Part shown: in pieces, positions 101 to 39,636 of the stretch
Position numbering within the stretch: position 1 is the first letter of the stretch
How the letters are laid out: each line of letters starts with the position of its first letter
IMG/VR virus record: IMGVR_UViG_3300046004_001717
Span: 1-42,703 of that record
Strand: one strand, 5' to 3'
Source: a virus
DNA length: 42,703 bases
Program-made: the position numbers and the translations under genes
The notes under the pieces: model-generated
The model's database searches: none
Seen by the model: the letters and a program-made list of their open reading frames with translations, nothing else
What the model was told of the DNA's origin: nothing

Positions 101-369
101 TGTTAATAATGATTTACGTGCTTCTAACCATATTTACCTGGCTCTATAGTGGCTACAAGAGTGGGCAAGAGCTTGCAGAGATTAAACACCGGATTGAAAA
201 AGGTGAAATGCAACCCCAGTATATTCAGGTGAACTACGTCAATGTGTTCTTCCAGGGACTCTGTTGGCCTACATACTGGATGGTCTTTATCGGACAGTGG
301 GTATTCGATAAAAACGTAAGGATTAAAGGCCCTAAGATTGTCGAGACCAAATTTGGGAAGGGTAAATAA
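100..369 (+). CDS. Small membrane protein, unknown function
   Basis: An 89-residue protein starting at the ATG that overlaps the preceding stop; GGAGAG sits about 9 bases upstream. Residues 1 to about 18 are strongly hydrophobic (an N-terminal membrane anchor or uncleaved signal, MLIMIYVLLTIFTWLYSGY). A second hydrophobic, aromatic-rich patch lies around residues 47-67 (VNVFFQGLCWPTYWMVFIGQW). The stretch between them is charged (KHRIEKGE), and the C-terminus is basic. I do not recognise the family. The coding frame is supported by tight translational coupling on both sides: its TAA overlaps the ATG of the methyltransferase gene. It could be an inner-membrane accessory protein, but no function can be inferred. 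Confidence 0.75.
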   Translation: MLIMIYVLLTIFTWLYSGYKSGQELAEIKHRIEKGEMQPQYIQVNYVNVFFQGLCWPTYWMVFIGQWVFDKNVRIKGPKIVETKFGKGK

Positions 370-1133
370 TGGGAATAAACATCGGTGAAGGTTTTCAGGT
401 CATATATGCGGATTGTCCATGGGAATATGATAATCCGCAGGACTTTGACCCGGCAAGAGGAGGGACACCTTATAAACAAATGAAAATGGCAGACCTCTGC
501 CAAATGTGCGATCTTGTTAATCAGGTAGCAGCAAAAGATAGTATACTGTTTATGTGGGCTACATTCCCTAAGTTAATCGAAGCTCTCCAGGTAATGGGAG
601 CATGGGACTATAGATACGTTACTGTGGCCTTTGACTGGATTAAGCTGAACCCCAATGGTGAGTTGTATTCACCTATGGAGAACATGGCTACATTCAATAC
701 TCCAGGTAAAAATGATGGTATACGAATAACTCCTAAAGACATCATCCTCAAAGGTGGTGTTCGATCTGGGCAGGGCTATTACACTAATGCAAATGCAGAG
801 ATATGTTTGCTTGGCACCAAAGGTAAAACCGGGGAACTCCGGGCTAACCGATCTGTAAAGCAAGTAGTATTCTGTGACGATGTAGCCAATCGTATTGGAG
901 ATGAGGGTGAATGCATTATGACTCCTATCAAGGAGCACAGTGCTAAACCTGAAGAAGTCCGGGAACGTATAAATGCTCTCACTGGTGGAGTCCCGGCACT
1001 TGAACTGTTTGCTCGACCCCCGGCTAGAGTTCCTGGATGGGTTAAATTGGGTTGGGAAATTGATAATAAAGACATCAGAGAAGTCATGCAAGACTTAATA
1101 GATGGAAACTACAGGAGACCTAAAGATGCCTAA
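369..1133 (+). CDS. MT-A70-family DNA N6-adenine methyltransferase
   Basis: 254 residues. Near the N-terminus VIYADCPWEY (Asp15-Trp18) is the DPPW catalytic motif of MT-A70 methyltransferases with Cys in place of the first Pro. LFMWAT (about residue 58) and the later SAM-fold segments fit the family, as does the C-terminal ALELFARPPARVPGW segment, which matches the usual 'ElFaR...GW' ending. The family transfers a methyl group from SAM to the N6 of adenine in DNA or RNA; phage members usually modify DNA against host restriction. No restriction enzyme gene is adjacent. The ATG overlaps the upstream stop and is preceded by AAGGG. It is one of three DNA methyltransferases in the window. Confidence 0.88.
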   Translation: MGINIGEGFQVIYADCPWEYDNPQDFDPARGGTPYKQMKMADLCQMCDLVNQVAAKDSILFMWATFPKLIEALQVMGAWDYRYVTVAFDWIKLNPNGELYSPMENMATFNTPGKNDGIRITPKDIILKGGVRSGQGYYTNANAEICLLGTKGKTGELRANRSVKQVVFCDDVANRIGDEGECIMTPIKEHSAKPEEVRERINALTGGVPALELFARPPARVPGWVKLGWEIDNKDIREVMQDLIDGNYRRPKDA

Positions 1134-1584
1134 GCATACTTATCCAAACAAAATCTGCTGGGATTGTGTGGCACTCACTGGTAAACAGACCCTTGTTGCC
1201 CAGGATATCGTTCAGGAAGAAGCTGTATGTGATGTCTGTAAGCGTAAGGGAGTTGTAGTTCCTCCTGTATCATTAGGGCACTTCTCCAGAGAACAGATAG
1301 CATTAGCCCGGTCTGAATGCAAGCGTCTAGGTCTCTATAAAGCAGATGGAGTTACCCCTGAAGCAATGTATAAGGCTATCACCATTGTAGAGGGTGTTCT
1401 GGGGACTGAGCATATGTCCCTATGGACTAAAAAGATGGTTGATGGGATAAAAGCTGATCTGGAATCAGGAAAGTCACTGACTAAGTATGATCTGGAGAAG
1501 CTTATGTTCTGGTTCACCAATGATGTGAACATGATGAAAGAAAAAGAAGAAGCTCCAAGTCCAATTATAACAGTAGGTAAATAG
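1126..1584 (+). CDS. Cys-rich hypothetical protein (possible zinc binder)
   Basis: 152 residues from the ATG at 1126, chosen over an upstream in-frame ATG at 1102 because AGGAGA at 1113-1118 is well placed for it. Residues 10-41 contain two CxxC pairs (CWDC and CDVC), suggesting a small zinc ribbon. The rest is helical, with SREQIALARSECKRLGL and a Lys/Glu-rich C-terminal part. The start overlaps the methyltransferase stop by 8 bases. I do not recognise the family. A nucleic-acid or protein-binding adaptor is possible because short zinc ribbons often do this, but that is inference only. Confidence 0.75.
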   Translation: MPKHTYPNKICWDCVALTGKQTLVAQDIVQEEAVCDVCKRKGVVVPPVSLGHFSREQIALARSECKRLGLYKADGVTPEAMYKAITIVEGVLGTEHMSLWTKKMVDGIKADLESGKSLTKYDLEKLMFWFTNDVNMMKEKEEAPSPIITVGK

Positions 1585-1586
1585 TC

Positions 1587-2135
1587 ATGATAGGATACAT
1601 ATACCAACTACAAGATGTGATGGATAATTTTGATGATGGGCAGTTTATGAAGGCAAGAAATCTTGTCCATACTACCATTGACCAGAACTTCAAGATATTT
1701 TTGATCGGCAATGGTGGGTCTGCAGCTATGGCTATGCACATGGCTAATGATCTGAGTAAGCTTGTTGCTGATGGAATCAAACGTCCTGTCAAGGCTATGT
1801 GTCTGACCTCTGAGGTATCGACACTCACTGCAGTAGCCAATGACAAGGACTATTGCTATATATTTCAGCATCAGTTAGAGAACTGGGCAGTTCCCGGAGA
1901 CCTGGTAATAGCATATTCGTGCTCCGGGGTATCCTCTAATATTCTACATGCAGTATCCTGGGCAAAAGAGCATGGGGTTAAGGTTCTCAGTTTTACTGGT
2001 GGAACATCCCTCTATAATGAGTCAGATGCTGGAGTTTTTATAGATTCAGATTCGTGCCAACAGATTGAAGACATGCATCTTATTCTTAGTCACCTGATGT
2101 GCCTAGAACTTGTGGAGAAATTCAATGATTTCTAA
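1587..2135 (+). CDS. gmhA: SIS-domain phosphoheptose isomerase (GmhA-like)
   Basis: 182 residues. FLIGNGGSAAMAMHMANDLSK (about residues 38-58) is the phosphosugar-binding loop of GmhA-type SIS isomerases. CSGVSSNIL (about residues 112-120) fits the second sugar-phosphate loop, and IEDMHLILSHLMC near the C-terminus is the typical closing helix with the conserved Glu and His. The family converts sedoheptulose 7-phosphate to D-glycero-D-manno-heptose 7-phosphate in the cytoplasm. Length is normal for the family. The next two genes encode a nucleotidyltransferase and a heptose-type kinase, which strongly supports a heptose rather than a glucosamine substrate. First gene of the glycan operon. Confidence 0.85.
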   Translation: MIGYIYQLQDVMDNFDDGQFMKARNLVHTTIDQNFKIFLIGNGGSAAMAMHMANDLSKLVADGIKRPVKAMCLTSEVSTLTAVANDKDYCYIFQHQLENWAVPGDLVIAYSCSGVSSNILHAVSWAKEHGVKVLSFTGGTSLYNESDAGVFIDSDSCQQIEDMHLILSHLMCLELVEKFNDF

Positions 2136-2856
2136 GGCATTGATCTTGGCAAGTGGAGCAGGTTCCCGATTAGGTGGATGGAATAAGGGTATGTTGCCAG
2201 TCTACAATAAACTGGCAATCTACTATGCCCTTGACCTTGCTGCTGAAGTTGGCATTAAGTCTGTAGGTATAACCTGCGGATTTTCTACATTCGATGTATT
2301 CTGGATAGAGCTTAATGAGTTCTACAAGGATATGGACATCAACTTAATAATGCAAAAAGATGGTGAAGGGCCAGTTGCAGCTATACAATATGCTGAGAGC
2401 TGGCTGAATAAGGAGGGGTGTCTGGTGCAATATGTTGACAACATAAACCTTGACCCGGCACTTCCTCTTTATATCAAAGATAGACTATCTGACCCCGGTT
2501 GTACTACGTTCCCATACTATAAACAAAACAACACCGACTGTGGTCAGATAGTCTTAGGTAGTCAAGGGGTTGAAAAGATAGTTGAAAAAGCAAACCCCTC
2601 ATTATCCCCATGGTGTCTTGGGGGAGTGCATATATTCGATAATAATATTAGCAAGTATGCTAAGATGGTCAAACCAAGACCTGAACTTAATATGGTTGAC
2701 CTATGCCAAGTCTACAATTCAAAAGGACAATTACATATCGGTGGAACAGTTAAAGAGGTTTACGATATTGGAACGTTTGAGGGGTTGTATGCAGCAAATA
2801 CTGCTGTAAGAGAATTATGGTTATCAGCAAAACACCAATGCGAGTCAGTATTATAG
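2125..2856 (+). CDS. Sugar-1-phosphate nucleotidyltransferase (RmlA/HddC-like)
   Basis: 243 residues from the ATG at 2125, which overlaps the gmhA stop and follows GGAGA. ALILASGAGSRLG (about residues 4-16) is the NTP-binding signature loop of nucleotidyltransferases, and KGMLPVYNKLAIYYALDLA resembles the RmlA motif that carries the catalytic Lys. VQYVDNINLD provides the metal-binding Asp region, and YDIGTFEGLYAA matches the sugar-binding end. The family joins a sugar 1-phosphate to an NTP to make an NDP-sugar. Given its GmhA- and HddA-like neighbours, a heptose 1-phosphate guanylyl- or adenylyltransferase is the best inference; the primary sequence alone looks closer to RmlA, so nucleotide and sugar are uncertain. 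Confidence 0.8.
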   Translation: MISKALILASGAGSRLGGWNKGMLPVYNKLAIYYALDLAAEVGIKSVGITCGFSTFDVFWIELNEFYKDMDINLIMQKDGEGPVAAIQYAESWLNKEGCLVQYVDNINLDPALPLYIKDRLSDPGCTTFPYYKQNNTDCGQIVLGSQGVEKIVEKANPSLSPWCLGGVHIFDNNISKYAKMVKPRPELNMVDLCQVYNSKGQLHIGGTVKEVYDIGTFEGLYAANTAVRELWLSAKHQCESVL

Positions 2857-3752
2857 GTGGTGGAACTGACTATCCAAGTTATTATAAGAAAAATGACTAT
2901 GGATGTGTAATCAGTATTGCCATTGATGTCTATGTTTACGTTATTGTAAAAAATAGACGGGATTCAGATATAGCTATCAATTGGTCTCAGCATGAACGGG
3001 TAACTGAGGTAGATGAGATCAAGCATGAATTAATCCGGGAGGCAATGAGACTTCTTAGAATAAGTGATGGTATTGAGATAACTACAATATCAGACATTGA
3101 TAGTCAAGGTTCCGGGTTAGGCAGCAGCTCTGCAGTTCTTGTTGGAGTTCTTAATGCACTACATGCATATAAGGGTGATGTAGATATTACCCCAGAAAGA
3201 CTTGCAGTAGAAGCTACTTATATCGAACAACAGATATTGCATAAACCAATCGGACTACAGGATGCATGGCCATGTGCTATAGGTGGTATAAATTATTATA
3301 GATTCTACCCGAATGACGATTGTGTTCACTATCCAGTTGATATAGCAATAGATGAGCTGGTTTTATTCAAGTGTGGTCTAGCTCGGCAATCCGATGAAAT
3401 ATGTGCTCAAACAGGTGAAAATGCTGAAGCAAATAATAAGATACTGAATGAGATGAAGTATGCCACAGAAGACCTGGCAAAAGGTATGATAAAACTGAGG
3501 TATGCTTTAGCCCAGGGTTGGGAATTGAAAAAGCAACTCTGTGAGAATATTAGTAATCCAACTGTTGATAAGCATGTCAAAGCACTCCAGACTTCTGGAG
3601 CATGGGCATGTAAACTTTGTGGTTCCGGGGCCAGTGGTTATATACTGGCTTGCACGAATCCAAAGAACCATAACTTTTTGAGGGGTATGACTCCTCTGCA
3701 GTGTCTACCGATAAATGTCTCTAAAGGGAGTGAGATTATATACAATGGATAA
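2817..3752 (+). CDS. hddA: GHMP-family sugar kinase, D-glycero-D-manno-heptose 7-phosphate kinase-like
   Basis: 311 residues. The start TPMRVSIIGGGTDYPSYY has the GGGTD motif typical of HddA-type GHMP kinases. GSGLGSSSAVLVGVLNAL (about residues 98-115) is the GHMP ATP-binding loop. KPIGLQDAWPCAIGGINYY corresponds to the segment carrying the catalytic Asp, and LCGSGASGYILA near the C-terminus is GHMP motif 3. HddA phosphorylates heptose 7-phosphate at C1. The start overlaps the upstream gene by 40 bases; ATG at 2817 is preferred because it includes the whole first beta strand. With GmhA and the nucleotidyltransferase it makes most of an NDP-heptose pathway; only a phosphatase for the C7 phosphate is missing nearby. 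Confidence 0.87.
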   Translation: MVISKTPMRVSIIGGGTDYPSYYKKNDYGCVISIAIDVYVYVIVKNRRDSDIAINWSQHERVTEVDEIKHELIREAMRLLRISDGIEITTISDIDSQGSGLGSSSAVLVGVLNALHAYKGDVDITPERLAVEATYIEQQILHKPIGLQDAWPCAIGGINYYRFYPNDDCVHYPVDIAIDELVLFKCGLARQSDEICAQTGENAEANNKILNEMKYATEDLAKGMIKLRYALAQGWELKKQLCENISNPTVDKHVKALQTSGAWACKLCGSGASGYILACTNPKNHNFLRGMTPLQCLPINVSKGSEIIYNG

Positions 3753-4551
3753 AAAAGTAATTGCAATAACCCTATACCGACGACCTGATTATACACAGGT
3801 TCTATTTGATGCCCTGAAAAAATGCTATGGGATAGAAGACTATATGATCTTTGTATCCTGTGACTATGATGAAAGATTCCATGAGGGATGCACTAAGTCA
3901 CTCAGAATAGCTGAGGCATTCAGGGATACATTCCATTCAAATACTATTATTAGCCAGAATATACCTAAACTGGGGATAGACCTCAACAAGCTTTATATTC
4001 TGCCACTGGCCTATGAACAATCGGACTATGTTATATTCCTGGAGGATGACACTATACCATCCCCGGATGCACTCCGATACTTTGAATGGGGTCAACATTT
4101 CAAAGATAACCCTGACATTATAGCTATTTGTGGCTATGAGCGATATGGTGATATACCATTCCATAACCTGGTTCTTGAGCACCAGGCACATGCAGCATTC
4201 AAGCTTGTGAACAAGTTCTCATCCTGGGGATGGGCATTATGGAAAGATCGATACGAGAGAATCTATGGTATGGATGGAAGTAACTACATACCTTTTGTCG
4301 ATGCACCTAATGGTCGATTTGACTGGCACTTATTCTGGCAGTTCAAGGGTCTACAGGGATGTATATTCCCTCGGTTGCCTAGAATACAATCCATTGGGGG
4401 TGAGATGGGTGAGCATACCCCTAATGCCCAATGGCATAAAGATAATGAATATAATCCACTAGGAGCTTGGTGCCAGGAAATGCCTGACACAGATCAATGG
4501 CAGTTAGTATCTGCAGACTGGGATACTGCTATGAAGGAGTTATCAGAATGA
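3745..4551 (+). CDS. GT-A fold glycosyltransferase
   Basis: 268 residues from ATG 3745, which overlaps the upstream stop and follows GGGAG. The N-terminus KVIAITLYRRPDYTQVLFDAL is the nucleotide-binding first beta strand and helix of a GT-A glycosyltransferase. VIFLEDDTIPSPDALRYF carries an EDD metal-binding (DxD-like) motif resembling GNT-I-type enzymes. A Trp/Phe-rich segment around residues 155-165 (NKFSSWGWALW) looks like an acceptor loop seen in LPS and glycan transferases. It probably transfers a sugar, perhaps the NDP-heptose made by the upstream genes, to a glycan, protein or DNA acceptor in the cytoplasm. No transmembrane segment is visible. Confidence 0.8.
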   Translation: MDKKVIAITLYRRPDYTQVLFDALKKCYGIEDYMIFVSCDYDERFHEGCTKSLRIAEAFRDTFHSNTIISQNIPKLGIDLNKLYILPLAYEQSDYVIFLEDDTIPSPDALRYFEWGQHFKDNPDIIAICGYERYGDIPFHNLVLEHQAHAAFKLVNKFSSWGWALWKDRYERIYGMDGSNYIPFVDAPNGRFDWHLFWQFKGLQGCIFPRLPRIQSIGGEMGEHTPNAQWHKDNEYNPLGAWCQEMPDTDQWQLVSADWDTAMKELSE

Positions 4552-5093
4552 CAGTATCAGATGAAACCACTAAGTTAAGACCCTACATTGCTCAATACTG
4601 TAGTGGTAGGGGTGTTGACCTTGGCTGTGGGTGTGCAAAGATTGTGCCTGAAGCTATCGGGGTTGAGTTTACATTTTATAATGAACCCCAGCAAGCTCTA
4701 CTCTATACGGGTGAGAACTATTTTGGTCATGATCTTAACTGGGGACTTCCCATGTTCCAGGATAATGAGTTGGATTATGTGTATTCCAGTCATGTCCTTG
4801 AAGACTTTGAAGACCCAGAAGTTAAACTAACAGAATGGACTAGGGTTGTTAAGCCCGGTGGTCTGCTCATTCTGGTTCTGCCTCATGGAGATTTCTACCC
4901 TAAAGCCGGGACTCCTGAAGCAAATGGTTCCCATAAAATGGACTGGTGGGAAGACACTCTTACTGATATGGCAGAAAGATTGAAGCTGCCAATCAATGTT
5001 GAAGTGGTAATAAGACCAGAATACTTCCGCAAGCATGGCACAGATACCTGGTCTTTTGTTGTCATATTCAGGAAGGTCAATGATGTTCTCTAA
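4548..5093 (+). CDS. Class I SAM-dependent methyltransferase
   Basis: 181 residues from ATG 4548, which overlaps the previous stop with AAGGAG 8 bases upstream. GVDLGCGCAKIVPEAIGVEF is SAM-binding motif I. YVYSSHVLEDFEDPEVKLTEWTRVVKPGGLLILVLPH covers motifs II and III of the Methyltransf_11 type. Its place inside the sugar operon suggests O- or C-methylation of a sugar or of a lipid- or peptide-linked glycan. The acceptor cannot be read from the sequence. It is the first of four consecutive but dissimilar SAM-fold proteins, which argues for successive distinct modifications rather than a recent duplication. Confidence 0.85.
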   Translation: MTVSDETTKLRPYIAQYCSGRGVDLGCGCAKIVPEAIGVEFTFYNEPQQALLYTGENYFGHDLNWGLPMFQDNELDYVYSSHVLEDFEDPEVKLTEWTRVVKPGGLLILVLPHGDFYPKAGTPEANGSHKMDWWEDTLTDMAERLKLPINVEVVIRPEYFRKHGTDTWSFVVIFRKVNDVL

Positions 5094-5661
5094 TCTCCAT
5101 GACTTTACTAATAGGCCTTTAGAAACCTGTTACAATGCTGATGGCCCTATAGTTCCTGAGCAATATGCTTGGGAACTAGAGCAGCTTATCAATATTTATA
5201 TTGAAAAAAGACCTCTTAGTATTGTGGAGATAGGAGTACGAGAGGGTGGAACTTTATATCATTGGTTAAAAAATATAGACCCAAAAGCCCAGATAGTTGC
5301 TATCGATAATATAATATCAGTAGAACAAAGAACTCTCTGGAATAGTTGGGATGTAAATAATCAGCTCACCATAATAAATAGTAACTCTGCTGATTGTGTA
5401 GATCAGGTCAAACAGATATTCCCAGATGGAGTAGACTGGCTATTTATTGATGGTGACCATAGCTATGAAGGGGCACTCTCTGATGTTATGCTATATGGGC
5501 CTTTAGTTCATGGAGTTATGGCTCTACACGATATACTATATGATAGATCGGGAGTACCGAAACTATGGTATGAGATTCGTAGAGCCAGCTATATAACTCA
5601 AGAGTTCATTGCTAATAGAGAGGATGAACATGGTGCTGGGATAGGAGTGGTTTACTTATGA
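5083..5661 (+). CDS. Class I SAM methyltransferase (Methyltransf_24 / cephalosporin-hydroxylase type)
   Basis: 192 residues if ATG 5083 is used; ATG 5080 is adjacent, and GGAAGG at 5071-5076 suits 5083 better. PLSIVEIGVREGGTLYHWL is motif I with the typical GxxxGGT pattern, AQIVAIDNI is the acidic strand-2 end, and WLFIDGDHSYEGALSDVMLY is the hallmark 'DGDHSYE' of this group. LHDIL follows. The family contains small-molecule and sugar O-methyltransferases found in polysaccharide and natural-product clusters. It overlaps the preceding gene by 11 bases. Function is most likely methylation of a glycan intermediate made in this operon. Confidence 0.82.
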   Translation: MFSNLHDFTNRPLETCYNADGPIVPEQYAWELEQLINIYIEKRPLSIVEIGVREGGTLYHWLKNIDPKAQIVAIDNIISVEQRTLWNSWDVNNQLTIINSNSADCVDQVKQIFPDGVDWLFIDGDHSYEGALSDVMLYGPLVHGVMALHDILYDRSGVPKLWYEIRRASYITQEFIANREDEHGAGIGVVYL

Positions 5662-6188
5662 GTGACAATAAACGATGGAGAGTTTTACAAGAGGCAGTAA
5701 TAGGAGCTAAGTCTATTGTAGAGATAGGTTTGCTCCGGGCTGATACTGAGGGTCATAGGTTGGGTGATGGTCATTCAACCAGATTCTTTTCTGAGTATAT
5801 TCTAGCCAATCCGGGGGTAAAGTATCTTGGCATAGACATAGACCCGGAAGCTGTGAAGCTTTGCAAGGGACTCTTCCCACACATGAAGTTTATGGTAGGG
5901 GATGGCCTTAAAGTTCCACATGCAGATAGTGTTGACTTCCTTTACCTGGATGGAAGTGATTGTCCAAAGGAAGCTCTCTGCCAATTCCTTGGTTTCTTCA
6001 GAGGAGTCATAAAGACTGTAGTTATCGATGACACATTCATGAAGGTCATTGATGATGAACGGTTACCAGGAAGTATTGGCTATAACTACTGGATAGGTAA
6101 GGGAGCAATACTTATGCCCTACCTTGATGCTATCGGATGGAGTGTAGCCTGTGAGGAAGACTACATGGGAGTAGCTTACAATGATTGA
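5658..6188 (+). CDS. SAM-fold protein, probable methyltransferase
   Basis: 176 residues; the ATG overlaps the upstream TGA and AGGAG precedes it. SIVEIGLLRADTEGHRLGDGHSTRFFSEYI corresponds to motif I but with an insertion after the first glycine, and YLGIDIDPEAVKLCKGLFP is motif II. FLYLDGSDCPKEALCQFLGFFRGVIKTVVIDDTF resembles the acidic loop of the previous protein. Divergence from the classical GxGxG loop makes SAM binding likely but not certain. It is co-translated with the genes on each side, so it probably acts in the same glycan pathway. It could be a regulatory or degenerate partner of a neighbouring methyltransferase. Confidence 0.7.
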   Translation: MSDNKRWRVLQEAVIGAKSIVEIGLLRADTEGHRLGDGHSTRFFSEYILANPGVKYLGIDIDPEAVKLCKGLFPHMKFMVGDGLKVPHADSVDFLYLDGSDCPKEALCQFLGFFRGVIKTVVIDDTFMKVIDDERLPGSIGYNYWIGKGAILMPYLDAIGWSVACEEDYMGVAYND

Positions 6189-6762
6189 AGTATTAGACTT
6201 TCAAGAACGTATGAAAGGTATCCGCAGTCAAGGGACTGAGCACCATGCCTGGTTAGTATATGGGCTTATTCGATGGCTTAGACCAGAAGTAGTTCTGGAA
6301 ACAGGGCCTTGGCAGGGTTATATGACAGCTCATATTGCATTAGCCTTGATGCACAATGAAGCTGGTTCAGTAACATCGATAGACAACTTTGCATATACCG
6401 ATGGTAACAGCCTTGGGAATCTGATGAACAACCTTATCAATTCTGGTGTATACGGGTCTCATGTAAAGTTGATTGAGGGAAATAGCCTTGATGTTCCCTG
6501 GCCCGAACATATAGACCTTGCTATTCTCGATGGTGATAGGTCAGCTCCCAATTTCTCAAAAGAAGTTCAGAGAGTTATAGACTCCGGGGCAATATGTTTC
6601 TGTGTGCATGACACACATCATGACCCGGAGGCATACTGGTTTATGAAAGAGTTCCGGGAAACCCATCCAGACTGGTCAGTTATTGACCCTACCATTGAGG
6701 GTGGTTTTGCAGTAGCAATGAAGAATGTTGCCGGGAGACTAACAGGGTGGATGCCCTCATGA
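6181..6762 (+). CDS. Class I SAM methyltransferase
   Basis: 193 residues starting at an ATG that overlaps the upstream stop; GGGAG lies upstream. VVLETGPWQGYMTAHIALAL is motif I (ETGxxxGYxTA), SVTSIDNF is motif II, and IDLAILDGDRSAPNFSKEVQRVI fits the DGDR/DGDH motif. VHDTHHDPEAYWFM carries a His-rich segment where related enzymes bind a divalent metal. Metal-dependent O-methyltransferases of this type act on catechols or sugars. It is the fourth SAM-fold protein in a row and is followed by a glycosyltransferase whose start overlaps its stop. Confidence 0.82.
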   Translation: MIEVLDFQERMKGIRSQGTEHHAWLVYGLIRWLRPEVVLETGPWQGYMTAHIALALMHNEAGSVTSIDNFAYTDGNSLGNLMNNLINSGVYGSHVKLIEGNSLDVPWPEHIDLAILDGDRSAPNFSKEVQRVIDSGAICFCVHDTHHDPEAYWFMKEFRETHPDWSVIDPTIEGGFAVAMKNVAGRLTGWMPS

Positions 6763-7520
6763 TTAGTATAGTCTTTGCTCAATGTAACCACTCAGAACTT
6801 ACTGTTCAAGCCATAGCCAGTGTGAAAGACTATGTTGATGAGATCATCGTTGTAGATGACTGCAGTTTAGAGGAACATAAAGTTCCTATCCGGGCACTTG
6901 AGGGAGTCAGACTTATTGAGTTGACTGAGAAAAGTCTGCCTCCAAAGGGGTTTAATATCGGGTGGTTGGAAGCTAAGGGGGACTACATATTCATTGCCAA
7001 CAATGATATAGTGGTAGCTCCGACCACCATACCCCGGATGATTAAAGGATTCCAGGATTTACCATCTGCAGCATGGATAAGTGGTTCTTATATCTTTGGT
7101 GACTGGCCCAGTTGCAGCAGACATGCTCCGGGGCATATAAAACAGCAGATGGATGAATCCAATGGTCAGAATCAGGCTGAGCTGTTTGCCTGGGCCGAAG
7201 CTCTGGATGGTCACTCAGAGTATCGACTGGCTACAGATTCTACGTTCTTTGTAGTAAGTAGAGAGGCCACTGAAAAAGTAGGAGTCTTTGAACCAATTCT
7301 ATACTCTCTGCTAGAGATGGACTATTCAATGAGACTCCATGATGCTGGGATGAAAATGGCCTGTTGTACCAATGGCATAATCTGGCATAGACATCATGTA
7401 ACTGTTGTTGAACATGTCACCCAGGATGAGGCAGCAGCAAAGTCAACTGAGTGTTACAAGTTTCTTATCGATAAATGGGGTGACAGATTTCCTCAGTTTA
7501 TGGAGAATCTACGAACATGA
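6759..7520 (+). CDS. Family 2 glycosyltransferase
   Basis: 253 residues from ATG 6759 (ATGA overlap with the previous stop; an alternative GTG lies at 6747). SIVFAQCNHSELTVQAIASV and EIIVVDDCS are the first strands of a GT2 domain. GFNIGWLEAKGDYIFIANNDIVVAP supplies the NND variant of the DxD metal-binding motif. LLEMDYSMRLHDAGMKMACCTNGIIWHRHH closely matches the rhamnosyltransferase-type GT2 ending with the conserved 'E.D...R...G' and H(x)H. It adds a sugar in the cytoplasm, and no membrane segment is present. It is the second of three glycosyltransferases in the island. Confidence 0.88.
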   Translation: MISIVFAQCNHSELTVQAIASVKDYVDEIIVVDDCSLEEHKVPIRALEGVRLIELTEKSLPPKGFNIGWLEAKGDYIFIANNDIVVAPTTIPRMIKGFQDLPSAAWISGSYIFGDWPSCSRHAPGHIKQQMDESNGQNQAELFAWAEALDGHSEYRLATDSTFFVVSREATEKVGVFEPILYSLLEMDYSMRLHDAGMKMACCTNGIIWHRHHVTVVEHVTQDEAAAKSTECYKFLIDKWGDRFPQFMENLRT

Positions 7521-8503
7521 TAGAGTTCTCTTCCACCAGTAAAATATTCAAATGGGCTGATCGAGTATTGGACTATGTAGAAAATGGTTCAACTCGACCA
7601 GTTCATCTGGCTCTACATATCACCAATAAGTGTCCTCATAACTGCCCCCAGTGCAATGGGGGTAGGGAAGCTGACCCTACTGCTGAACTTGATATTGATA
7701 CCATTTATCGAGTGTTAAACTGTGCTGAAAGAAATGGTGCTAAGGCAGTCACATTCGGTGGTGGGGGTGACCCTCTTGCTCATTTAGACTTTGTAGATGC
7801 CATTAAACATGCAGCAGAGTGTCGATTATCAATTGGAGTTATAACCAATGGAGTTATACTCCCGGATGAAGCTCTGAAAGTTATGGCTGAAAAGTGTACT
7901 TGGGTCAGAGTAAGTCTTGATGCCGGTACAGAAGAACAGTATAAACAAACACATGGTCAGTCAGCAAACCTGGAAAAGACCTTAGCCAATATAAAGAGAC
8001 TTGCAGACTTTCCAGGTCGTAAAGCGACTATTGGGGTAAGTTACTTAACCAGTGCTAATTGTATAACTGATATACCGATAGCCATTGATAAAGTTGCTAA
8101 GACCGGGGCAGACTATATTATATTCAGACCCTATGATGGGGACACCTTTGATGCCTCTGAGATAATAGGTGAATATAGATCGGGACTTCAGATAGCAAAG
8201 CATTATGAACGGATTCAAAGTCCAATAAGATCATATACTAAGTGCCATGCTATGCACTTTATTATTGAAGTAACCCCAACTGGTTTAGTCTTTCCTTGTT
8301 GTTACTGGAAAAATCAAAACAAACTCGCATATGGCAATGTGAATATTGATTCTCTGGATGAGATACTTCATTCCAGGCAATTCAAGAAGTTTGCTGAACG
8401 GGACATAACAAAAATATGCCCAGAATCTTGCAGAAACCATCCTATGAATGAGACAATAGAGGTCTGCTTCTGCAGACCAGTCACACACAAGGAGTTCTTA
8501 TGA
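7517..8503 (+). CDS. Radical SAM protein with SPASM-like C-terminus
   Basis: 328 residues. CPHNCPQC (Cys39, Cys43, Cys46) is the CxxxCxxC cluster motif that binds the [4Fe-4S] and SAM. GGGGDPLAH is the GGEP-like SAM-binding segment, and VITNGVIL and VRVSLDAGTEEQY are typical later strands. Near the C-terminus CHAMHF, PCCYW, CPESC and CFC form a Cys-rich SPASM or twitch-like region that probably binds a second cluster. The family performs peptide maturation, epimerisation or sugar chemistry by radical abstraction. In this island it could epimerise or dehydrogenate a sugar or modify a peptide acceptor; the substrate is unknown. Oxygen sensitivity of these enzymes fits an anaerobic host. Confidence 0.87.
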   Translation: MIEFSSTSKIFKWADRVLDYVENGSTRPVHLALHITNKCPHNCPQCNGGREADPTAELDIDTIYRVLNCAERNGAKAVTFGGGGDPLAHLDFVDAIKHAAECRLSIGVITNGVILPDEALKVMAEKCTWVRVSLDAGTEEQYKQTHGQSANLEKTLANIKRLADFPGRKATIGVSYLTSANCITDIPIAIDKVAKTGADYIIFRPYDGDTFDASEIIGEYRSGLQIAKHYERIQSPIRSYTKCHAMHFIIEVTPTGLVFPCCYWKNQNKLAYGNVNIDSLDEILHSRQFKKFAERDITKICPESCRNHPMNETIEVCFCRPVTHKEFL

Positions 8504-9879
8504 AAAAAGTGCTATTGATATCCCCGTTTAAGACTGACTCCGGGGAAAAGAACTGGGGCAGTCCTCCCCTTGGGTTATATCGATTAGCCAGTTGGATTAG
8601 TCAGTGGTGTATCTCAAAAGTTGAGGTAACTATTCTGGATTTAGCTATAAATGAGATTCCAGAATCATTTAAGGAATACCACTATGTTGGTTTTAGTCCC
8701 TTAAATGAGACTCTAGCCAAAGATATGGAACTCATGAATAGGGTAGCAAAAGATAACCCGGAAGCAGTTTTAATCTGTGGTGGAGTTGAAGCTACCCTTA
8801 ACTATCAGACTATCCTGGAAAAGACCCCTATTGAATGGATAGTTACCGGGTATGGTGAAGAAGCTCTTACCGATATTATTGATGGAATCAAAACCTCAAT
8901 ACCTGGAACTATCCGAAGGGTATACTCAGAATCTCTTGAGGAATATACTCTTGGGCATTACTTCTCACATCTGGATTTCTCAAAGCTCAACTACGAAACT
9001 TACTGGAAACAGACTGCAGCTCTCTATAAAAATCCCAATTATGAAGATATCAATACTGTCCGTCTGGTTACCAGCAGTCATTGCAATCGGGGTTGTGCAT
9101 TCTGTTCAGTAACACAATGGCAGAAAGCTGCTGTTGGCAGACTTAGTAAGCCAGCAATGTTGGATGCTGATGAGCTAAAACTGGTAGTAAGCAAAGTTAT
9201 TAAACAAGTCCCAGATGTCCGAACAGTATTTTTCTGTGAGGATGACTTCTGCCAGGATAGAAAACGAGTAGAAGAGTTTTGTGAGTGGTCAAAAGATACC
9301 TCTATTAAGTATCTGGTACAGACTCATCTATCTCATGTAGACTATGATATGATTCAGACTTTGAAAAAAGGTCGAGTTAGACACCTGACCCTTGGTATTG
9401 AAAATGCTAGTATGAATGTTCTGAAGTCTTTCCATAAGATTCAGAATCTGGAGCTGGTGCCTGATGTCATTAAGTGGTGTATAGATGCTGGTATTAATCC
9501 ATATCTACTCATCATTCTATTTGCTCCTGCATCTACTATTGAAGACCTAAAAACCAATGTTAAAGTTCTCCGGGAATGGTCAAACATGGGAGCAAGTATA
9601 AGTATTGAACCAGTGACTATGGCATATCGAGGTTCCCCATTCTGGGAATCCCTGCATGACTTTGAGTATGATGTAATAAAGGTCTCACCGGGGATAAATC
9701 TAAAACGGGCATTACGCATTCTCCCGGATGACCCGGATGCCAGAAAAGTTCAGCTTGAGTTCTGTGAAAGATGGCCTGAGTATCTGAAGTCTAAAGAGCT
9801 ATCTCACGCATTCAAGGGCAAGACTTCTAAGCACATGACTGACTTGCTGGAGGAAATCTTAAATGAATATAACTATTGA
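8500..9879 (+). CDS. B12-binding-domain radical SAM enzyme (probable C-methyltransferase type)
   Basis: 459 residues; AAGGAG precedes the ATG. Residues 1 to about 130 form a Rossmann-like cobalamin-binding domain: VLLISPFK, then PPLGLYRLASWI, then CGGVEATLNYQTIL with the typical 'GG.eat' and VTGYGEEAL. The DxHxxG lower-ligand motif is not evident, as in the base-off subgroup. The radical SAM core has CNRGCAFC (Cys195, Cys199, Cys202). HLTLGIENASMNVLKSFHK and NPYLLIILFAP follow as in methyltransferase or cyclase members. Known members methylate unactivated carbons or rearrange rings using cobalamin. It probably modifies a sugar or lipid in the glycan pathway. One of two B12-dependent enzymes predicted here. 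Confidence 0.87.
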   Translation: MKKVLLISPFKTDSGEKNWGSPPLGLYRLASWISQWCISKVEVTILDLAINEIPESFKEYHYVGFSPLNETLAKDMELMNRVAKDNPEAVLICGGVEATLNYQTILEKTPIEWIVTGYGEEALTDIIDGIKTSIPGTIRRVYSESLEEYTLGHYFSHLDFSKLNYETYWKQTAALYKNPNYEDINTVRLVTSSHCNRGCAFCSVTQWQKAAVGRLSKPAMLDADELKLVVSKVIKQVPDVRTVFFCEDDFCQDRKRVEEFCEWSKDTSIKYLVQTHLSHVDYDMIQTLKKGRVRHLTLGIENASMNVLKSFHKIQNLELVPDVIKWCIDAGINPYLLIILFAPASTIEDLKTNVKVLREWSNMGASISIEPVTMAYRGSPFWESLHDFEYDVIKVSPGINLKRALRILPDDPDARKVQLEFCERWPEYLKSKELSHAFKGKTSKHMTDLLEEILNEYNY

Positions 9880-10852
9880 TTGCAATACTGGTGGGCCTCT
9901 GTATGAATGGGCAGACCATAGTGTAGATGATGGTATCGGAGGGTCTGAGGAAGCTGCTATCTACCTTTCCAGGGAACTGGTAAAGCTTGGGCATAAGGTT
10001 ATTATGCATAATAACTGTGGTCAGTATGCAGGGATGCATAATGGTGTAGAGTATCAGCACTTTACAGAGCCAGTGCCAACAACCGATGTCTATATTGCTT
10101 GGAGAAATTGGCATCTATGCAAAGGTAGGCAAGATAGGTTTAAGTGGGTATGGTGCCATGATCTGCCACAGGGAGTTCATTGTCCTACTAGACAAGAGAT
10201 TGCTGATGGTGCCCTAAACTCTATAGACAAGTTTGTAGTGTTGAATAGCTATCATCAGAGAGTATATATGGATGCTGGAATCCCGGAGGACTATACTTTT
10301 GTATCTCCGAATGGAATACAGATAGAACAGTTTGACCAGGATATAGAACGTGACCCGGCACAGGTCATATACTTTAGTCATCCAGGTAGAGGCCTTGACC
10401 GTTTAAGAGAAGTCTGGCCCCAGATTCACCAAGCTGTGCCAGAGGCCTCTCTAGCGTCATTCTGGTGGGAACCAGAGCACTTCCGATCATATAACTCAGG
10501 GCAGAACATACTTCCTATGAGGAAGTTAGGTCATATGGAGCTTGCTGCTGAATGTCTCAAGAGTGGAGTCTTCGGATACCCCAGTGTGTTTGCACCTGAG
10601 ATATGTCCTATCACCACAATGAAAGCTCAGCTTGGTGGAGCTATCCCGGTCGTAGTTATTCAGGGTGGTATGGTCGATACCATTAAGTATGGAGTCCAAT
10701 GTTCCCAGGGTATGTTTGCCCAGGAACTCATCAGTGCTCTCAGGATGAGCATAGCAGGGGACTTAGATGCAGAGAGGTCTGAGATGATGGCTTGGGCCAG
10801 AGACACCTATTCCTGGAAGTCTGTTGCAGAGCAATGGAGTAGTGTCTGGTGA
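9863..10852 (+). CDS. GT-B (family 4-like) glycosyltransferase
   Basis: 329 residues. GGSEEAAIYLSRELVKLGHKVIMHNN near the N-terminus is the typical GT4 opening helix. FVVLNSYHQRVYMDAGIPEDYTFVSPNGIQIEQF is the inter-domain signature ('S..h......gip...i.vipNGvd...F'). IYFSHPGRGLDRLREVWPQI starts the donor domain, and FAPEICPITTMKAQLGGAIPVV carries the donor-binding Glu (E.cpi..lEAma.G.PVV). GGAGG-type Shine-Dalgarno GGAGG precedes the ATG, and the start overlaps the radical SAM gene by 17 bases. It transfers a nucleotide-activated sugar and is third in the island's set of transferases. Confidence 0.87.
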   Translation: MNITIDCNTGGPLYEWADHSVDDGIGGSEEAAIYLSRELVKLGHKVIMHNNCGQYAGMHNGVEYQHFTEPVPTTDVYIAWRNWHLCKGRQDRFKWVWCHDLPQGVHCPTRQEIADGALNSIDKFVVLNSYHQRVYMDAGIPEDYTFVSPNGIQIEQFDQDIERDPAQVIYFSHPGRGLDRLREVWPQIHQAVPEASLASFWWEPEHFRSYNSGQNILPMRKLGHMELAAECLKSGVFGYPSVFAPEICPITTMKAQLGGAIPVVVIQGGMVDTIKYGVQCSQGMFAQELISALRMSIAGDLDAERSEMMAWARDTYSWKSVAEQWSSVW

Positions 10853-11088
10853 ATAAGGACTTAACTAAACGATACTTGATATATCTCTTACGTTGGCAAC
10901 TGTCAACACCGATCTTAGCTCCTTGTGTAAATTACTTTGCCCCCAGTCTTGGAACTATGGGGGCAACAGCCCTTGCTAACCTTATAGGGGGTCTTTTATT
11001 CTTCTGGTGGGATAGACACTTTGTATTCAAACGTAAAAAAACTGGTAATTGTACCAGTTGTGGCGAACCCATCCATGAGATACAATGA
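10849..11088 (+). CDS. Small membrane protein with C-terminal CxxC (phage membrane protein, possible GtrA/holin-like role)
   Basis: 79 residues with a GTG start overlapping the upstream TGA; GGAG lies about 9 bases upstream. Two hydrophobic segments are visible, STPILAPCVNYFA and ALANLIGGLLFFWWDRHFVF, with a Trp/Phe-rich membrane edge. The C-terminus has basic KRKK then CTSCG, a possible zinc knuckle. I recall similar short phage membrane proteins with RWQLSTPILAP and a 'NLIGG..FFW.D..F' ending, but no firm function. The last 17 codons overlap an operator-promoter (11040-11086), so the sequence of the CxxC tail is constrained by two jobs. It could flip or anchor the glycan carrier or be a holin; undecided. 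Confidence 0.75.
   Translation: MNKDLTKRYLIYLLRWQLSTPILAPCVNYFAPSLGTMGATALANLIGGLLFFWWDRHFVFKRKKTGNCTSCGEPIHEIQ
11040..11086 (+). promoter_or_regulatory. Operator-promoter A of the conserved palindrome class
   Basis: AACTGGTAATTGTACCAGTT (11040-11059) is a perfect inverted repeat with 8-base arms and an ATTG spacer. TTGTGG (11058-11063), 17 bases, then TACAAT (11081-11086) form a sigma70-like promoter, with the -10 exactly 39 bases after the start of CTGGTA as at three other sites. The predicted transcript would start near 11093, just upstream of the structured RNA. The element lies inside the 3' end of the small membrane protein gene. Confidence 0.7.
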
Positions 11089-11204
11089 ATGTAGTTGATG
11101 CAGATTATCGCACTTACCGAGCGGAGTATATGACATTTCAAACTTCGATATCCTTTACGGTAAAGGTAGCTATTCTCGGGTTTATAGTTACCCGTAACAT
11201 TTGA
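11085..11204 (+). CDS. Possible 39-residue microprotein with hydrophobic C-terminus
   Basis: ATG at 11085 overlaps the previous stop in the ATGA manner used throughout this operon. It reads 39 codons to TGA. The second half (SFTVKVAILGFIV) is hydrophobic enough for one membrane segment. Against it: only a weak GAGAT upstream, no family recognised, and the frame runs through two hairpins of a probable RNA leader. If operator-promoter A fires, its transcript would start downstream of this ATG, so the ORF could be made only from the upstream operon message. Confidence 0.3.
   Translation: MNVVDADYRTYRAEYMTFQTSISFTVKVAILGFIVTRNI
11152..11194 (+). ncRNA. Two hairpins in the leader upstream of the riboswitch-like RNA
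   Basis: CCTTTA/TAAAGG (11152-11157 with 11161-11166) leaves a CGG loop. CGGGT/ACCCG (11177-11181 with 11190-11194) leaves an 8-base loop. Both lie between promoter A and the larger fold that follows. Neither has a U-run, so they are not terminators. They may belong to the same structured leader. Confidence 0.4.
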
Positions 11205-11220
11205 TGTGTTGCGTCTGCTC

Positions 11221-11352
11221 AGCTAGGGGTGGTCTAAGTCAGGGGAATCTAGCCGGGGTGCAAATCCTCGTTAAAATGTGTATCCGATAACTGCTGCTAG
11301 AGCTGTAGGTGTCTGCTCTTTTTGATAGAAGGGGCACTGACTTAGATACCCG
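11221..11352 (+). ncRNA. Structured leader RNA resembling a cobalamin riboswitch
   Basis: An outer helix pairs CTAAGTCAG (11234-11242) with CTGACTTAG (11337-11345), extended by GGGT/ACCC (11227-11230 with 11348-11351). Inside, TCTAGC (11248-11253) pairs with GCTAGA (11296-11301), enclosing a hairpin CGGGG/CCTCG (11254-11258, 11266-11270) with the 7-base T-loop TGCAAAT. A 9-bp hairpin (11314-11336) closes the 3' side. AGGGGAAT followed by GGTGCAAATCC matches the conserved 5' core of cobalamin riboswitches (AGGGAA..GGTGnAAnTCC), where the P5 hairpin also has a T-loop. A CACTG at 11335-11339 sits where the family has CnACTG, but the match is imperfect and no standard B12 box is visible downstream. 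The Shine-Dalgarno of the next gene lies about 20 bases further on. Confidence 0.5.
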
Positions 11353-11380
11353 ATTCAAACTTTGAAAGAGAGGTAATATA

Positions 11381-11542
11381 ATGGAAAGTTATACTGTATA
11401 TGAAGTGATACGAGATGATGAAGTAGTAATTACTACTACTGATAAACAGCAAGCACAGAACTTTGCTAAGTCAATTGCTGGTGTAGTCAAAGAAGTTCAG
11501 ACTACTGATGCTGCTATGTTCGCGGAGGAAGTTGTCCAATGA
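11381..11542 (+). CDS. 53-residue acidic hypothetical protein downstream of the structured RNA
   Basis: ATG at 11381 follows GAGAGG (11368-11373) with good spacing. The 53 codons end in a TGA that overlaps the dUTPase ATG. The protein starts MESYTVYEVIRDDEVV, has a Thr-rich turn, then a helix-forming KQQAQNFAKSIAG segment and an acidic C-terminus. It looks like a small beta-beta-alpha fold of the kind that reads 'xxYxVYEVxxxGxxVxxxxxxxxAxxFA', common in short phage accessory proteins, but no function is recognised. It is the first gene behind the riboswitch-like leader and thus the direct candidate for its control. Confidence 0.7.
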   Translation: MESYTVYEVIRDDEVVITTTDKQQAQNFAKSIAGVVKEVQTTDAAMFAEEVVQ

Positions 11543-11961
11543 TTAAAGTAACTCTGGAACCAGGGGCAAGACTCCCGGAATATGCACATGACACAGACTC
11601 CGGGGCCGATCTATTCTCTAATGTATGTACAGTTATCAATCCTGGGGAAACCCGTATGGTAGATACTGGCATTAAGATTGAGCTTCCAGTTGGTTTTGAA
11701 GCTCAAGTCCGATCTAAGTCAGGCCTAGCCTGTAAGCATGGAATACATGTTCTCAATTCTCCTGGCACAATTGACCAGGGATACAGAGGGCCTGTAAAAG
11801 TTATTCTCCATAATGCAGGAAAAGAGCCATTTGTAGTTGACTTCGATATGAAAATTGCTCAGATAGTCATTGCTCCATATGTCCAAAAGACATTTGTAGC
11901 AGTTGATGATCTTTCAGATTCAGTCCGAGGTGAGAATGGCTTTGGGAGTACAGGTAAATGA
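11539..11961 (+). CDS. dut: dUTP diphosphatase (trimeric dUTPase)
   Basis: 140 residues with all five family motifs in order: DSGADLF (motif 1), RSKSGLACKHGIHV (motif 2, with the phosphate-binding RSxSGL region), GTIDQGYRGPVKV (motif 3, with the catalytic Asp and Tyr), KIAQIVIAP (motif 4), and RGENGFGSTG (motif 5, the C-terminal arm with the conserved Phe). It hydrolyses dUTP to dUMP and pyrophosphate, keeping uracil out of phage DNA and feeding the thymidylate synthase ThyX encoded about 5 kb downstream. GGAGGA precedes the ATG. Length is typical. Confidence 0.96.
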   Translation: MIKVTLEPGARLPEYAHDTDSGADLFSNVCTVINPGETRMVDTGIKIELPVGFEAQVRSKSGLACKHGIHVLNSPGTIDQGYRGPVKVILHNAGKEPFVVDFDMKIAQIVIAPYVQKTFVAVDDLSDSVRGENGFGSTGK

Positions 11962-14846: not shown

Positions 14847-15398
14847 ATGCTTACTGTACCTAAAGGCTATTCACAGATCAAAGCTACCTTTGGTAACCCG
14901 GAGAAGCATGGAGAATTGAATGCTGCTTGGGTTAAGGCATCACTTACCCAGGTAGACCTACCATTCACGATGAGGAATGCCTACAAGCCTACTCAGAGTA
15001 TCACCCATGCTACTGTTCATAAACTCATAGCACATGAGTTTATCTCTGCTCTTACTGATATCTGGAACTATGCCAGAGTTGAAGTTAAGAAAATACATGG
15101 CACTGATGAGTCAACAGAGTTTTATGACAATCGATGTCATGATTATCTGGCAGACTTAGGTCTTGACCTCTTTGGTGGAACATTCGTTTATCGAAAGAAA
15201 CGGGGTTCCCTGGAGTTGTCTATGCATTCATTCGGAATAGCTTTTGACCTGAACCCTGGTGAGAACCAGATGGGCACTGATGGTAACATGCCACAGTGGG
15301 CTATCAATATATTTAAGAAGTGGGGATTCTCTTGGGGAGGACTCTGGAAGGGCCATGGCAAAGACCCTATGCACTTCCAGTATGCAACAGGAGCATAA
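14847..15398 (+). CDS. M15-family peptidase endolysin (D-Ala-D-Ala carboxypeptidase / L-alanyl-D-glutamate type)
   Basis: 183 residues. LSMHSFGIAFDLNP contains H-x6-D, the first zinc ligands of M15 peptidases, and DPMHFQY at the C-terminus supplies the last His ligand, preceded by the family's WGG.W....DPMHF pattern. RNAYKPTQSITHATVHKLIAHEF is an N-terminal helical part. The enzyme cleaves peptidoglycan peptide stems and is the likely lysin. There is no signal peptide, so a holin would release it. Immediately downstream are promoter B and a 48-residue membrane protein. The stop TAA touches the first base of the operator palindrome. Confidence 0.9.
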   Translation: MLTVPKGYSQIKATFGNPEKHGELNAAWVKASLTQVDLPFTMRNAYKPTQSITHATVHKLIAHEFISALTDIWNYARVEVKKIHGTDESTEFYDNRCHDYLADLGLDLFGGTFVYRKKRGSLELSMHSFGIAFDLNPGENQMGTDGNMPQWAINIFKKWGFSWGGLWKGHGKDPMHFQYATGA

Positions 15399-15444
15399 AC
15401 TGGTAATTGTACCTGTATCTATCTCCCGGACTATACGATATACT
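15398..15444 (+). promoter_or_regulatory. Operator-promoter B of the conserved palindrome class
   Basis: AACTGGTAATTGTACCTGTA (15398-15417) differs from the perfect palindrome mainly in the right arm. TATACT at 15439-15444 lies 39 bases after CTGGTA. The -35 position (TATCTA) is poor, suggesting dependence on an activator bound to the palindrome. Downstream are AAGGGAGAT and the ATG of a small membrane protein. Confidence 0.7.
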
Positions 15445-16380: not shown

Positions 16381-16455
16381 TCAGGGATAGCTTAACTGGC
16401 AGAGCACAGGCCTTTGGAACCTGATGTCGGGGTTCGATACCCTGTCCCTGAACCA
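16381..16455 (+). tRNA. tRNA-Gln (anticodon TTG), CCA encoded
   Basis: Complete cloverleaf of 75 bases. The acceptor TCAGGGA/TCCCTGA has 7 pairs, followed by discriminator A and an encoded CCA. The D stem is GCTT/GAGC. The anticodon stem CAGGC/ACCTG has a C-A mismatch at the last pair, and the loop CTTTGGA gives anticodon TTG with G37, as in many bacterial tRNA-Gln. The T arm is CGGGG TTCGATA CCCTG. It would read CAA codons. Confidence 0.92.
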
Positions 16456-25236: not shown

Positions 25237-25284
25237 ACCTGGTATTTGTACCAGTTTCCAGCAAAGACATCTATCCTGTATACT
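25237..25284 (+). promoter_or_regulatory. Operator-promoter D between divergent helicase genes
   Basis: ACCTGGTATTTGTACCAGTT (25237-25256) keeps the CTGGTA...TACCAG arms. TATACT is at 25279-25284, 40 bases after CTGGTA. The helicase ATG at 25291 is 6 bases beyond the -10. The same palindrome also lies upstream of the minus-strand primase promoter, so one bound protein could affect both. Confidence 0.7.
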
Positions 25285-26766: not shown

Positions 26767-27050
26767 TAAGTAAAGAGCATAAACAACTCTTGAGTTCTAC
26801 ACATCCAATTGCTGCTAATGTAGTTATCATTGATAAGGATGATGAGAATGAAAAGTATACGTGCAAAGCAGACTACTATGGAACCGGGCACCTTATAGTA
26901 ACCTATAAAGGTAAACAACTCGGTATTGACCCAGATAACTTTCATTCCAAAGACCCTAAAAGACTATATATAGTTAGATCAGGGGAATGGAGCAGATTCA
27001 GAGTGAGATCAATAATTCTGGATTCAAAGACCATTAGAAAAAACTGGTAA
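26763..27050 (+). CDS. Hypothetical protein, 95 residues
   Basis: ATG 26763 overlaps the helicase stop (ATGA) and GGAGGG precedes it. Strand-rich sequence (ANVVIIDKDDENEKYTCKADYYGTGHLIVTYKGKQLGI) followed by a basic end (SRFRVRSIILDSKTIRKNW). The stop codon TAA is part of the operator E palindrome. No family is recognised; a small nucleic-acid binding beta fold is possible. Confidence 0.62.
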   Translation: MISKEHKQLLSSTHPIAANVVIIDKDDENEKYTCKADYYGTGHLIVTYKGKQLGIDPDNFHSKDPKRLYIVRSGEWSRFRVRSIILDSKTIRKNW

Positions 27051-27088
27051 TTGTACCAGTTGAAACTACCTTCCACAAGAGGTATACT
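27042..27088 (+). promoter_or_regulatory. Operator-promoter E of the conserved palindrome class
   Basis: The perfect palindrome AACTGGTAATTGTACCAGTT spans 27042-27061, TTGAAA is at 27060-27065, and TATACT is at 27083-27088 with 17-base spacing. The distance from CTGGTA to the -10 is 39. This is the strongest promoter of the set by match to consensus. It precedes the SSB-like gene. Confidence 0.75.
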
Positions 27089-27136: not shown

Positions 27137-28180
27137 TTGAGCGAAGCAACAGAACCAAAAGTACGTATCCCATCGGCAAAGAAAATGGAGCAAGTGTTTT
27201 CCATCATATCTGAGGATGAGGATTTCCGCTTTGGAAAGATCAAAGTCGAAAGAGAGAAGCAGAGATATACTCTTCCTGCTCCTACATCAGATGACCCGGA
27301 AAACACTGAGTCTGTAAAGACTTTCTACGGGGTCGTAGTCTACTTCCGCAAAGCTTTCTTCAAGAATGCTGAGAAGAATGAGACAGTGGAAAAAAGAGAA
27401 CTGGCTATCCTTCGTGATGGTAAGTTCATGCCCGAACTGCTCTACATATCGAAAGCAGGACTCTGGAACTGGAAAGGTTTCCTTGCAGCAGTTGAAAAAC
27501 AGAAGCTGGATTCCTACAGCCATGTAATGGTTCGTTTTACTGCAGAACCCGGTCAGTCCTCTGATGGACAGTACAAGTTCTCCAAGGTCAAGATGGAAAT
27601 AGTCTCTGAGCTTGAAGCTGAAGAGATCGAATATCTCCAGGAACTTCAACAGATAGTTCGTGCTAGAGTTCGGAAATACTCCAGCTCTGAAGACCTTGAT
27701 TCTGCGGAAGACAAGTATCTTGACGAAGAAGACAAGAAGCCAGCAGGTAATGCTGCTCCTGCAGAGGATGACGATGATGCTATTGCTGCTAAAGCTGCAA
27801 AGCGCACCAGAGCCATTGCTGAAGAGGATGACGATGAGCCAGTAGCTAAGGCTAAAACCAAGGCTAAACCAGCTCCTGTCGATGATGACGATGATGAGAC
27901 CCCGGCACCCAAGACCAGAGCTAAGGCAAAGCCAGCTCCTGTTGAGGATGACGATGAGCCAGCTCCTAAAGCCAGAGCAAAGGCAAAGCCAGCTCCTGTT
28001 GAGGATGATGACGATGTGCCTGTTGCTAAGGCAAAGGCCAAGCCAGCTCCTGTTGAGGATGATGAGGACGATGAAGACCTCAAGCCAAAGGCTAAGGCTA
28101 AAGCTAAGCCAGAGCCTGAGCCAGTGGCTAAAACCAAGGGTAAATACCCCAACATCGATGATGACGATGATGAAGACTAG
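27137..28180 (+). CDS. SSB-like protein with repetitive Lys-Ala/Asp-Glu tail
   Basis: 347 residues with a TTG start; GGAGG is about 8 bases upstream and no closer ATG exists in frame. Residues 1 to about 185 form a folded domain with beta-rich segments (FYGVVVYFRKAFF, SHVMVRFTAEPG) ending in a helix. From residue about 190 the protein is a polyampholyte with four repeats around KAKPAPV followed by runs of Asp/Glu, and the last residues are almost all acidic (NIDDDDDED). Single-stranded DNA-binding proteins characteristically end in such an acidic tail that contacts partners. Its position between helicases and DNA polymerase supports an SSB role. The Lys/Ala/Pro repeats also recall histone H1-like tails. 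The OB fold itself cannot be confirmed by eye. Confidence 0.6.
   Translation: MSEATEPKVRIPSAKKMEQVFSIISEDEDFRFGKIKVEREKQRYTLPAPTSDDPENTESVKTFYGVVVYFRKAFFKNAEKNETVEKRELAILRDGKFMPELLYISKAGLWNWKGFLAAVEKQKLDSYSHVMVRFTAEPGQSSDGQYKFSKVKMEIVSELEAEEIEYLQELQQIVRARVRKYSSSEDLDSAEDKYLDEEDKKPAGNAAPAEDDDDAIAAKAAKRTRAIAEEDDDEPVAKAKTKAKPAPVDDDDDETPAPKTRAKAKPAPVEDDDEPAPKARAKAKPAPVEDDDDVPVAKAKAKPAPVEDDEDDEDLKPKAKAKAKPEPEPVAKTKGKYPNIDDDDDED
27860..28080 (+). repeat. Imperfect coding tandem repeat in the SSB-like gene
   Basis: Copies of CCAGCTCCTGT begin at 27869, 27932, 27989 and 28043, spaced 63, 57 and 54 bases and all in frame. Each is followed by GATGATGAC-type acidic codons. The unit is prone to slippage, so repeat number may vary between strains. 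Confidence 0.85.
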
Positions 28181-39591: not shown

Positions 39592-39636
39592 TTTGGTAAG
39601 CTGAATATAGTAAAAACATGCGAAGGAGTGAGACTG

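Follow-up and report, generated by a model that had tools for sequence, protein, structure and literature searches.

A predicted two-domain structured RNA leader ahead of the dUTPase unit of a phage

Analysis of the viral record IMGVR_UViG_3300046004_001717 (the window, meaning the whole stretch of 42,703 nt) suggested the presence of a phage-encoded, structured 5' leader of two domains that would act in cis on the dUTPase unit, a reading to which we give roughly even chances. A phage promoter composed of a palindrome and a -10 box would place the transcription start near 11093, with the ~260 nt at the 5' end of the transcript folding into two multi-helix domains that abut each other (11093-11224 and 11227-11351). 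The leader would end 16 nt ahead of the Shine-Dalgarno (SD) sequence of the unit formed by a 53-residue ORF and dUTPase. Its most likely effect would be to protect the 5' end of the mRNA and to control either access for translation initiation or its rate. Both domains fold far better than shuffled sequences, the promoter elements recur, and an SD and a start codon follow directly after the leader. Against the structured leader counts that no helix clearly sequesters the SD. A ligand is possible; nothing points to one.

The putative promoter consists of the following elements:

11040-11059, + strand: palindrome AACTGGTA-ATTG-TACCAGTT, proposed activator/operator site of the phage promoter
11081-11086, + strand: -10-like box TACAAT, predicted +1 near 11093
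11040-11059, 15398-15417, 25237-25256 and 27042-27061, + strand: copies of the palindrome found by pattern match

The palindrome AACTGGTA-N4-TACCAGTT occurs four times in the window, always on the + strand, compared with 0.22 copies expected. All four copies are followed 21-22 nt downstream by a -10-like box, which is TATACT at three sites and TACAAT at the copy ahead of the leader; the other three apparently lie nearer to a downstream start codon than this one. Judged by sequence, the four sites probably represent one class of phage promoter that carries a site for a dimeric activator or repressor. The +1 position had already been fixed at ~7 nt past the -10 box when the sequence from there on was folded, and it coincides with the start of domain 1's outer helix.

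Domain 1 is predicted to fold as follows:

11093-11224, + strand: leader domain 1, closing helix 11093-11098/11219-11224 plus 11100-11104/11214-11218
11114-11163, 11165-11192 and 11193-11213, + strand: hairpins of domain 1 in the predicted fold

Its minimum free energy (MFE) is -41.7 (z -3.66), and 1 of 400 shuffles was as stable; no Rfam family matched. It directly abuts domain 2, and the leader of ~260 nt in total exceeds the segment described in an earlier, sequence-only note. For the whole leader (11093-11352) z was -4.2, with 0 of 400 shuffles as stable. A tandem duplication of the two domains, seen by eye in TACCCGTAAC/TATCCGATAAC and in GTCTGCTC, which occurs twice, was rejected: alignment gave p ~0.25 or worse, and the covariance model of neither domain matches the other.

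Domain 2 corresponds to the RNA of the earlier note and contains the following elements:

11227-11351, + strand: leader domain 2, closing helix 11227-11242/11337-11351 with one bulged G
11254-11270, + strand: possible T-loop hairpin CGGGG-TGCAAAT-CCTCG with a 5-bp stem and the 7-base loop TGCAAAT, previously taken for a cobalamin-like element
11286-11313, + strand: hairpin with loop TAGA, pair probabilities ~0.98-1 except for one marginal pair
11314-11336, + strand: hairpin of 9-10 bp adjoining the closing helix, most pairs 0.92-1, end pairs 0.54-0.78

The closing helix had been described as 9 bp long. An exact helix is indeed present, but its core measures 10 bp (11233-11242/11337-11346) and grows outward by five pairs around the bulged G to ~15 pairs, with pair probabilities of mostly 0.94-1, which makes it near certain in the predicted ensemble. 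Stems of at least 10 bp with arms at least 60 nt apart were obtained in 3 of 300 dinucleotide shuffles. The MFE of 11226-11352 is -49.7 kcal/mol; shuffled versions average -35.3, and 0 of 400 attain its stability (z -4.14). Domain 2 ranks first in stability among 490 window tiles of 130 nt, although a strong MFE is by itself weak evidence and other tiles, many of them coding, also have z < -4 in a noisy estimate from 15 shuffles. Checking against the window letters placed both motifs quoted in the earlier note, AGGGGAAT at 11241-11248 and GGTGCAAATCC at 11257-11267. Because of these motif and stem checks, the z value and the top-ranking tile, 11226-11352 is very probably a structured RNA.

The interior of domain 2 differs from the fold proposed earlier. 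The inner helix TCTAGC/GCTAGA (11248-11253/11296-11301) was not borne out; its ensemble probability is 5e-5, forcing it costs ~8 kcal/mol, and about two 6-bp matches are expected by chance in 130 nt. The hairpin at 11286-11313 occupies 11296-11297 and 11302-11303, overlapping the strand that had been paired with 11248-11253. For the 7-base T-loop hairpin, the stem and loop sequence exists, but the hairpin has an ensemble probability of only ~0.05 and lies 3 kcal/mol above the minimum in nearest-neighbour models, which omit T-loop tertiary contacts; a competing hairpin (11256-11262/11279-11285) reaches 0.73-0.82. Since those contacts are left out of the models, the T-loop hairpin may still form. 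The 9-bp hairpin said to abut the closing stem is retained. Hairpins 11256-11262/11279-11285 and 11286-11313 are the preferred inner elements of the predicted fold.

Structure in this region might also reflect DNA, coding or chance context, namely a small gene, a mobile-element inverted repeat or a replication/recombination site; we regard this as improbable. A 39-codon ORF (MNVVDADYR...; 11085-11204, + strand) spans most of domain 1 and overlaps the upstream stop as ATGA. It could be a real gene, perhaps for a small hydrophobic protein, which counts against the structured leader, although 39 open codons arise by chance with a likelihood of ~15%; the start codon would precede the predicted +1. 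Inverted repeats also flank domain 2, but the element has one copy in the window, no flanking target repeat is visible by eye, and both domains are significant on the RNA strand. AAC/GTT triplets are essential in integron attC sites; they are absent here, and an attC-like inverted repeat was rejected.

The earlier note had assigned domain 2 a cobalamin-type core. GGGGAA, GGTGCAAATCC and TCCGATAACTG do occur in cobalamin order, and the phage encodes, as had been stated, two B12-dependent enzymes, NrdJ and a B12-binding radical SAM protein. In a diverged cobalamin riboswitch variant, the closing helix would correspond to P3, the TGCAAAT hairpin to P4 and UCCGAUAACUG to a degenerate L5. As in cobalamin riboswitches (RF00174, AdoCbl families), GGGAA stands upstream of a GGUGNAAAUCC T-loop hairpin sequence in a leader ahead of an SD. 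However, cobalamin models gave no match at gathering thresholds, and a search of 11090-11450 (361 nt) with all Rfam families, including all cobalamin models, returned at E<=10 only a chance sX12 match; the lack of a model match had been named beforehand as one half of a refuting test, and this half came out against the cobalamin reading. RF00174 alone found nothing in the entire record, whereas a positive control on another viral contig, a truncated cobalamin riboswitch, cut off by the edge of the locus (L069:8236-8357), was recovered with 66.5 bits. The conserved L5 cytidines (CCCGC-ACUGU) make the L5-L13 kissing loop in cobalamin riboswitches (PMC11260477), but the sole CCC within 11224-11354 sits at 11349. 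CCCGCNACTGT, a motif of chance-level frequency, has no match within 11227-11351 at <=3 mismatches, and the B12 box AGYCAGGNNACCTGCC has none at <=3 mismatches near 11221-11380, in agreement with the earlier remark that an ordinary B12 box is lacking. In the sequence of the solved structure 4GXY (PMC4436661), GGGAA almost adjoins the P4 stem; here it lies 6 nt from the T-loop stem, a wider spacing, and that hairpin makes up ~5% of the ensemble. Moreover, the downstream unit is dUTPase and not nrdJ, and a search of 50 NrdJ-phage records, including one of the same phage, gave no cobalamin riboswitch match. As the cobalamin tests failed, the B12 link through the two enzymes is circumstantial. With no model match, neither L5 CCCGC nor B12 box, another spacing and another predicted fold, the cobalamin-type core was not upheld, and we consider a diverged variant very improbable.

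The GGGAA/T-loop signature was also traced elsewhere. GGGAA-N3-16-GGTGCAAATCC is expected ~2e-4 times in the window, a figure computed after the fact. This pattern and a variant gave 139 matches in the fetched viral loci. Of these, 108 fall within open frames of at least 80 codons, another 5 overlap with tRNA/tmRNA calls, and the remaining 26 belong to neither group; Rfam confirmed one of the matches (L069) as a cobalamin riboswitch, four loci being tested. In bacterial genomes, none of the tested matches to a tighter pattern was called as cobalamin (13 of the 15 loci tested). GGGAA with GGTGCAAATCC alone is thus not evidence of a cobalamin riboswitch, because it recurs in coding sequence and in tRNA-like T-arms. 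The T-loop hairpin sequence type is identical to that of phage tRNA/tmRNA T-arms with UGCAAAU loops and recurs in phage contigs, but no tRNA or tmRNA is called at this leader: ARAGORN and Rfam RF00005 found only a tRNA-Gln at 16381-16455, and a permuted tmRNA was rejected on the lack of an ARAGORN call. On several phage contigs (L012, L036, L060, L094, L116, L119, L041, L042/L093/L100 and L011/L071/L098), GGGAA precedes a hairpin of 5-6 bp whose T-loop reads UGCAAAU; these cases lie mostly outside long ORFs and have no tRNA call, and some are located beside tRNA genes. On a further viral contig (L052:9549-9961), an ARAGORN call for a permuted tmRNA overlaps a UGCAAAU pattern match.

Relatives of the leader were sought by pattern scans of IMG/VR (among the matches listed) and of GTDB genomes, by scans anchored on the 53-aa ORF, phosphatase, dUTPase, Pol A and NrdJ proteins (for Pol A and NrdJ covering the matches listed), by blastn in phages and plasmids, and by running covariance models built from single sequences (R1-R3) against loci and complete phage records. 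Such models are insensitive, and their negatives are therefore soft. Among the matches listed, only the same phage carries the leader RNA, on contig 3300046003_004072, whose compared stretch is 100% identical; in a third copy, contig 3300046006_001667, the promoter palindrome matches but nothing of the leader beyond it does. As no relatives beyond identical copies were found, the fold receives no support from covariation. The closest other relatives on viral contigs, among the matches listed, share ~33% (Pol A), ~64% (NrdJ) and ~55% (dUTPase) identity, and no synteny with them was observed in the stretches compared. Going by these sequences, the phage is a member of a sparsely sampled lineage.

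The unit downstream of the leader begins with the following features:

11368-11373, + strand: Shine-Dalgarno GAGAGG, 16 nt past domain 2 and 7 nt ahead of the ATG
11381-11542, + strand: 53-residue ORF, first gene of the unit, no Pfam or PHROG match
11539-11961, + strand: dUTPase (Pfam PF00692, E 4e-23; phrog_135)

A deoxynucleoside monophosphate phosphatase-like gene follows dUTPase. The placement of the RNA between a phage promoter and this unit, as noted earlier, agrees with the plausible promoter upstream and the apparently non-coding structured RNA in the leader. The main pairing partner of the SD bases GAGG is 11360-11363, within a local hairpin of low stability, and they pair with neither domain; because this pairing is weak and local, no switch is evident. 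Compact multi-helix domains in a leader that closely precedes an SD and a nucleotide-metabolism unit would also suit a riboswitch or protein-binding leader of an undescribed class, sensing the nucleotide pool or a dUTPase/phosphatase product, perhaps by pairing of the domain 1 loop CGGGU (11177-11181) with the complementary ACCCG (11348-11352). This is a tentative proposal, as no homologues were found, no expression platform is evident with such an SD, and the domains have no known conserved core; that the two abutting domains form an undescribed, ligand- or protein-sensing class of phage regulatory RNA controlling the nucleotide-metabolism unit, with one phage species so far, is likewise doubtful. 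Equally tentative is a passive role of the structure, in stabilising the 5' end or in processing, without regulatory switching. The stable helix at the predicted +1, the long closing helix and the missing expression platform would fit it, but two elaborate domains exceed the needs of a 5' hairpin.

The two-domain leader stands at present as an orphan structured leader, real enough for probing and too isolated for classification. If sensing were true, it would control a phage dNTP-pool operon, which would be of interest because riboswitches are reportedly rare in phages (PMC9004378). A precedent for a phage-encoded riboswitch is the glutamine riboswitch known from marine phages such as Melnitz, there in linkage with a tmRNA gene (PMC9004378); the present leader differs in having no Rfam match and in its link to dUTPase.

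Several other gene arrangements were observed in the phage. A sugar/surface-type cluster (369-10852, + strand) contains a SIS isomerase, a nucleotidyl transferase, a GHMP kinase, methyltransferases and glycosyltransferases, and also holds a SPASM radical SAM and the B12-binding radical SAM protein. A single ORF (39628-42549, + strand) combines a T4-type prohead protease (PF03420) with the major capsid protein Gp23 (PF07068), which are separate features in the best-matching annotated phages. The family A DNA polymerase (28261-30966, + strand) carries an N-terminal domain of the uracil-DNA-glycosylase superfamily. Within ORF 27137-28180, CCAGCTCCTGT occurs four times, ~54-63 bp apart (27869-28053, + strand), which suggests a repeat protein.
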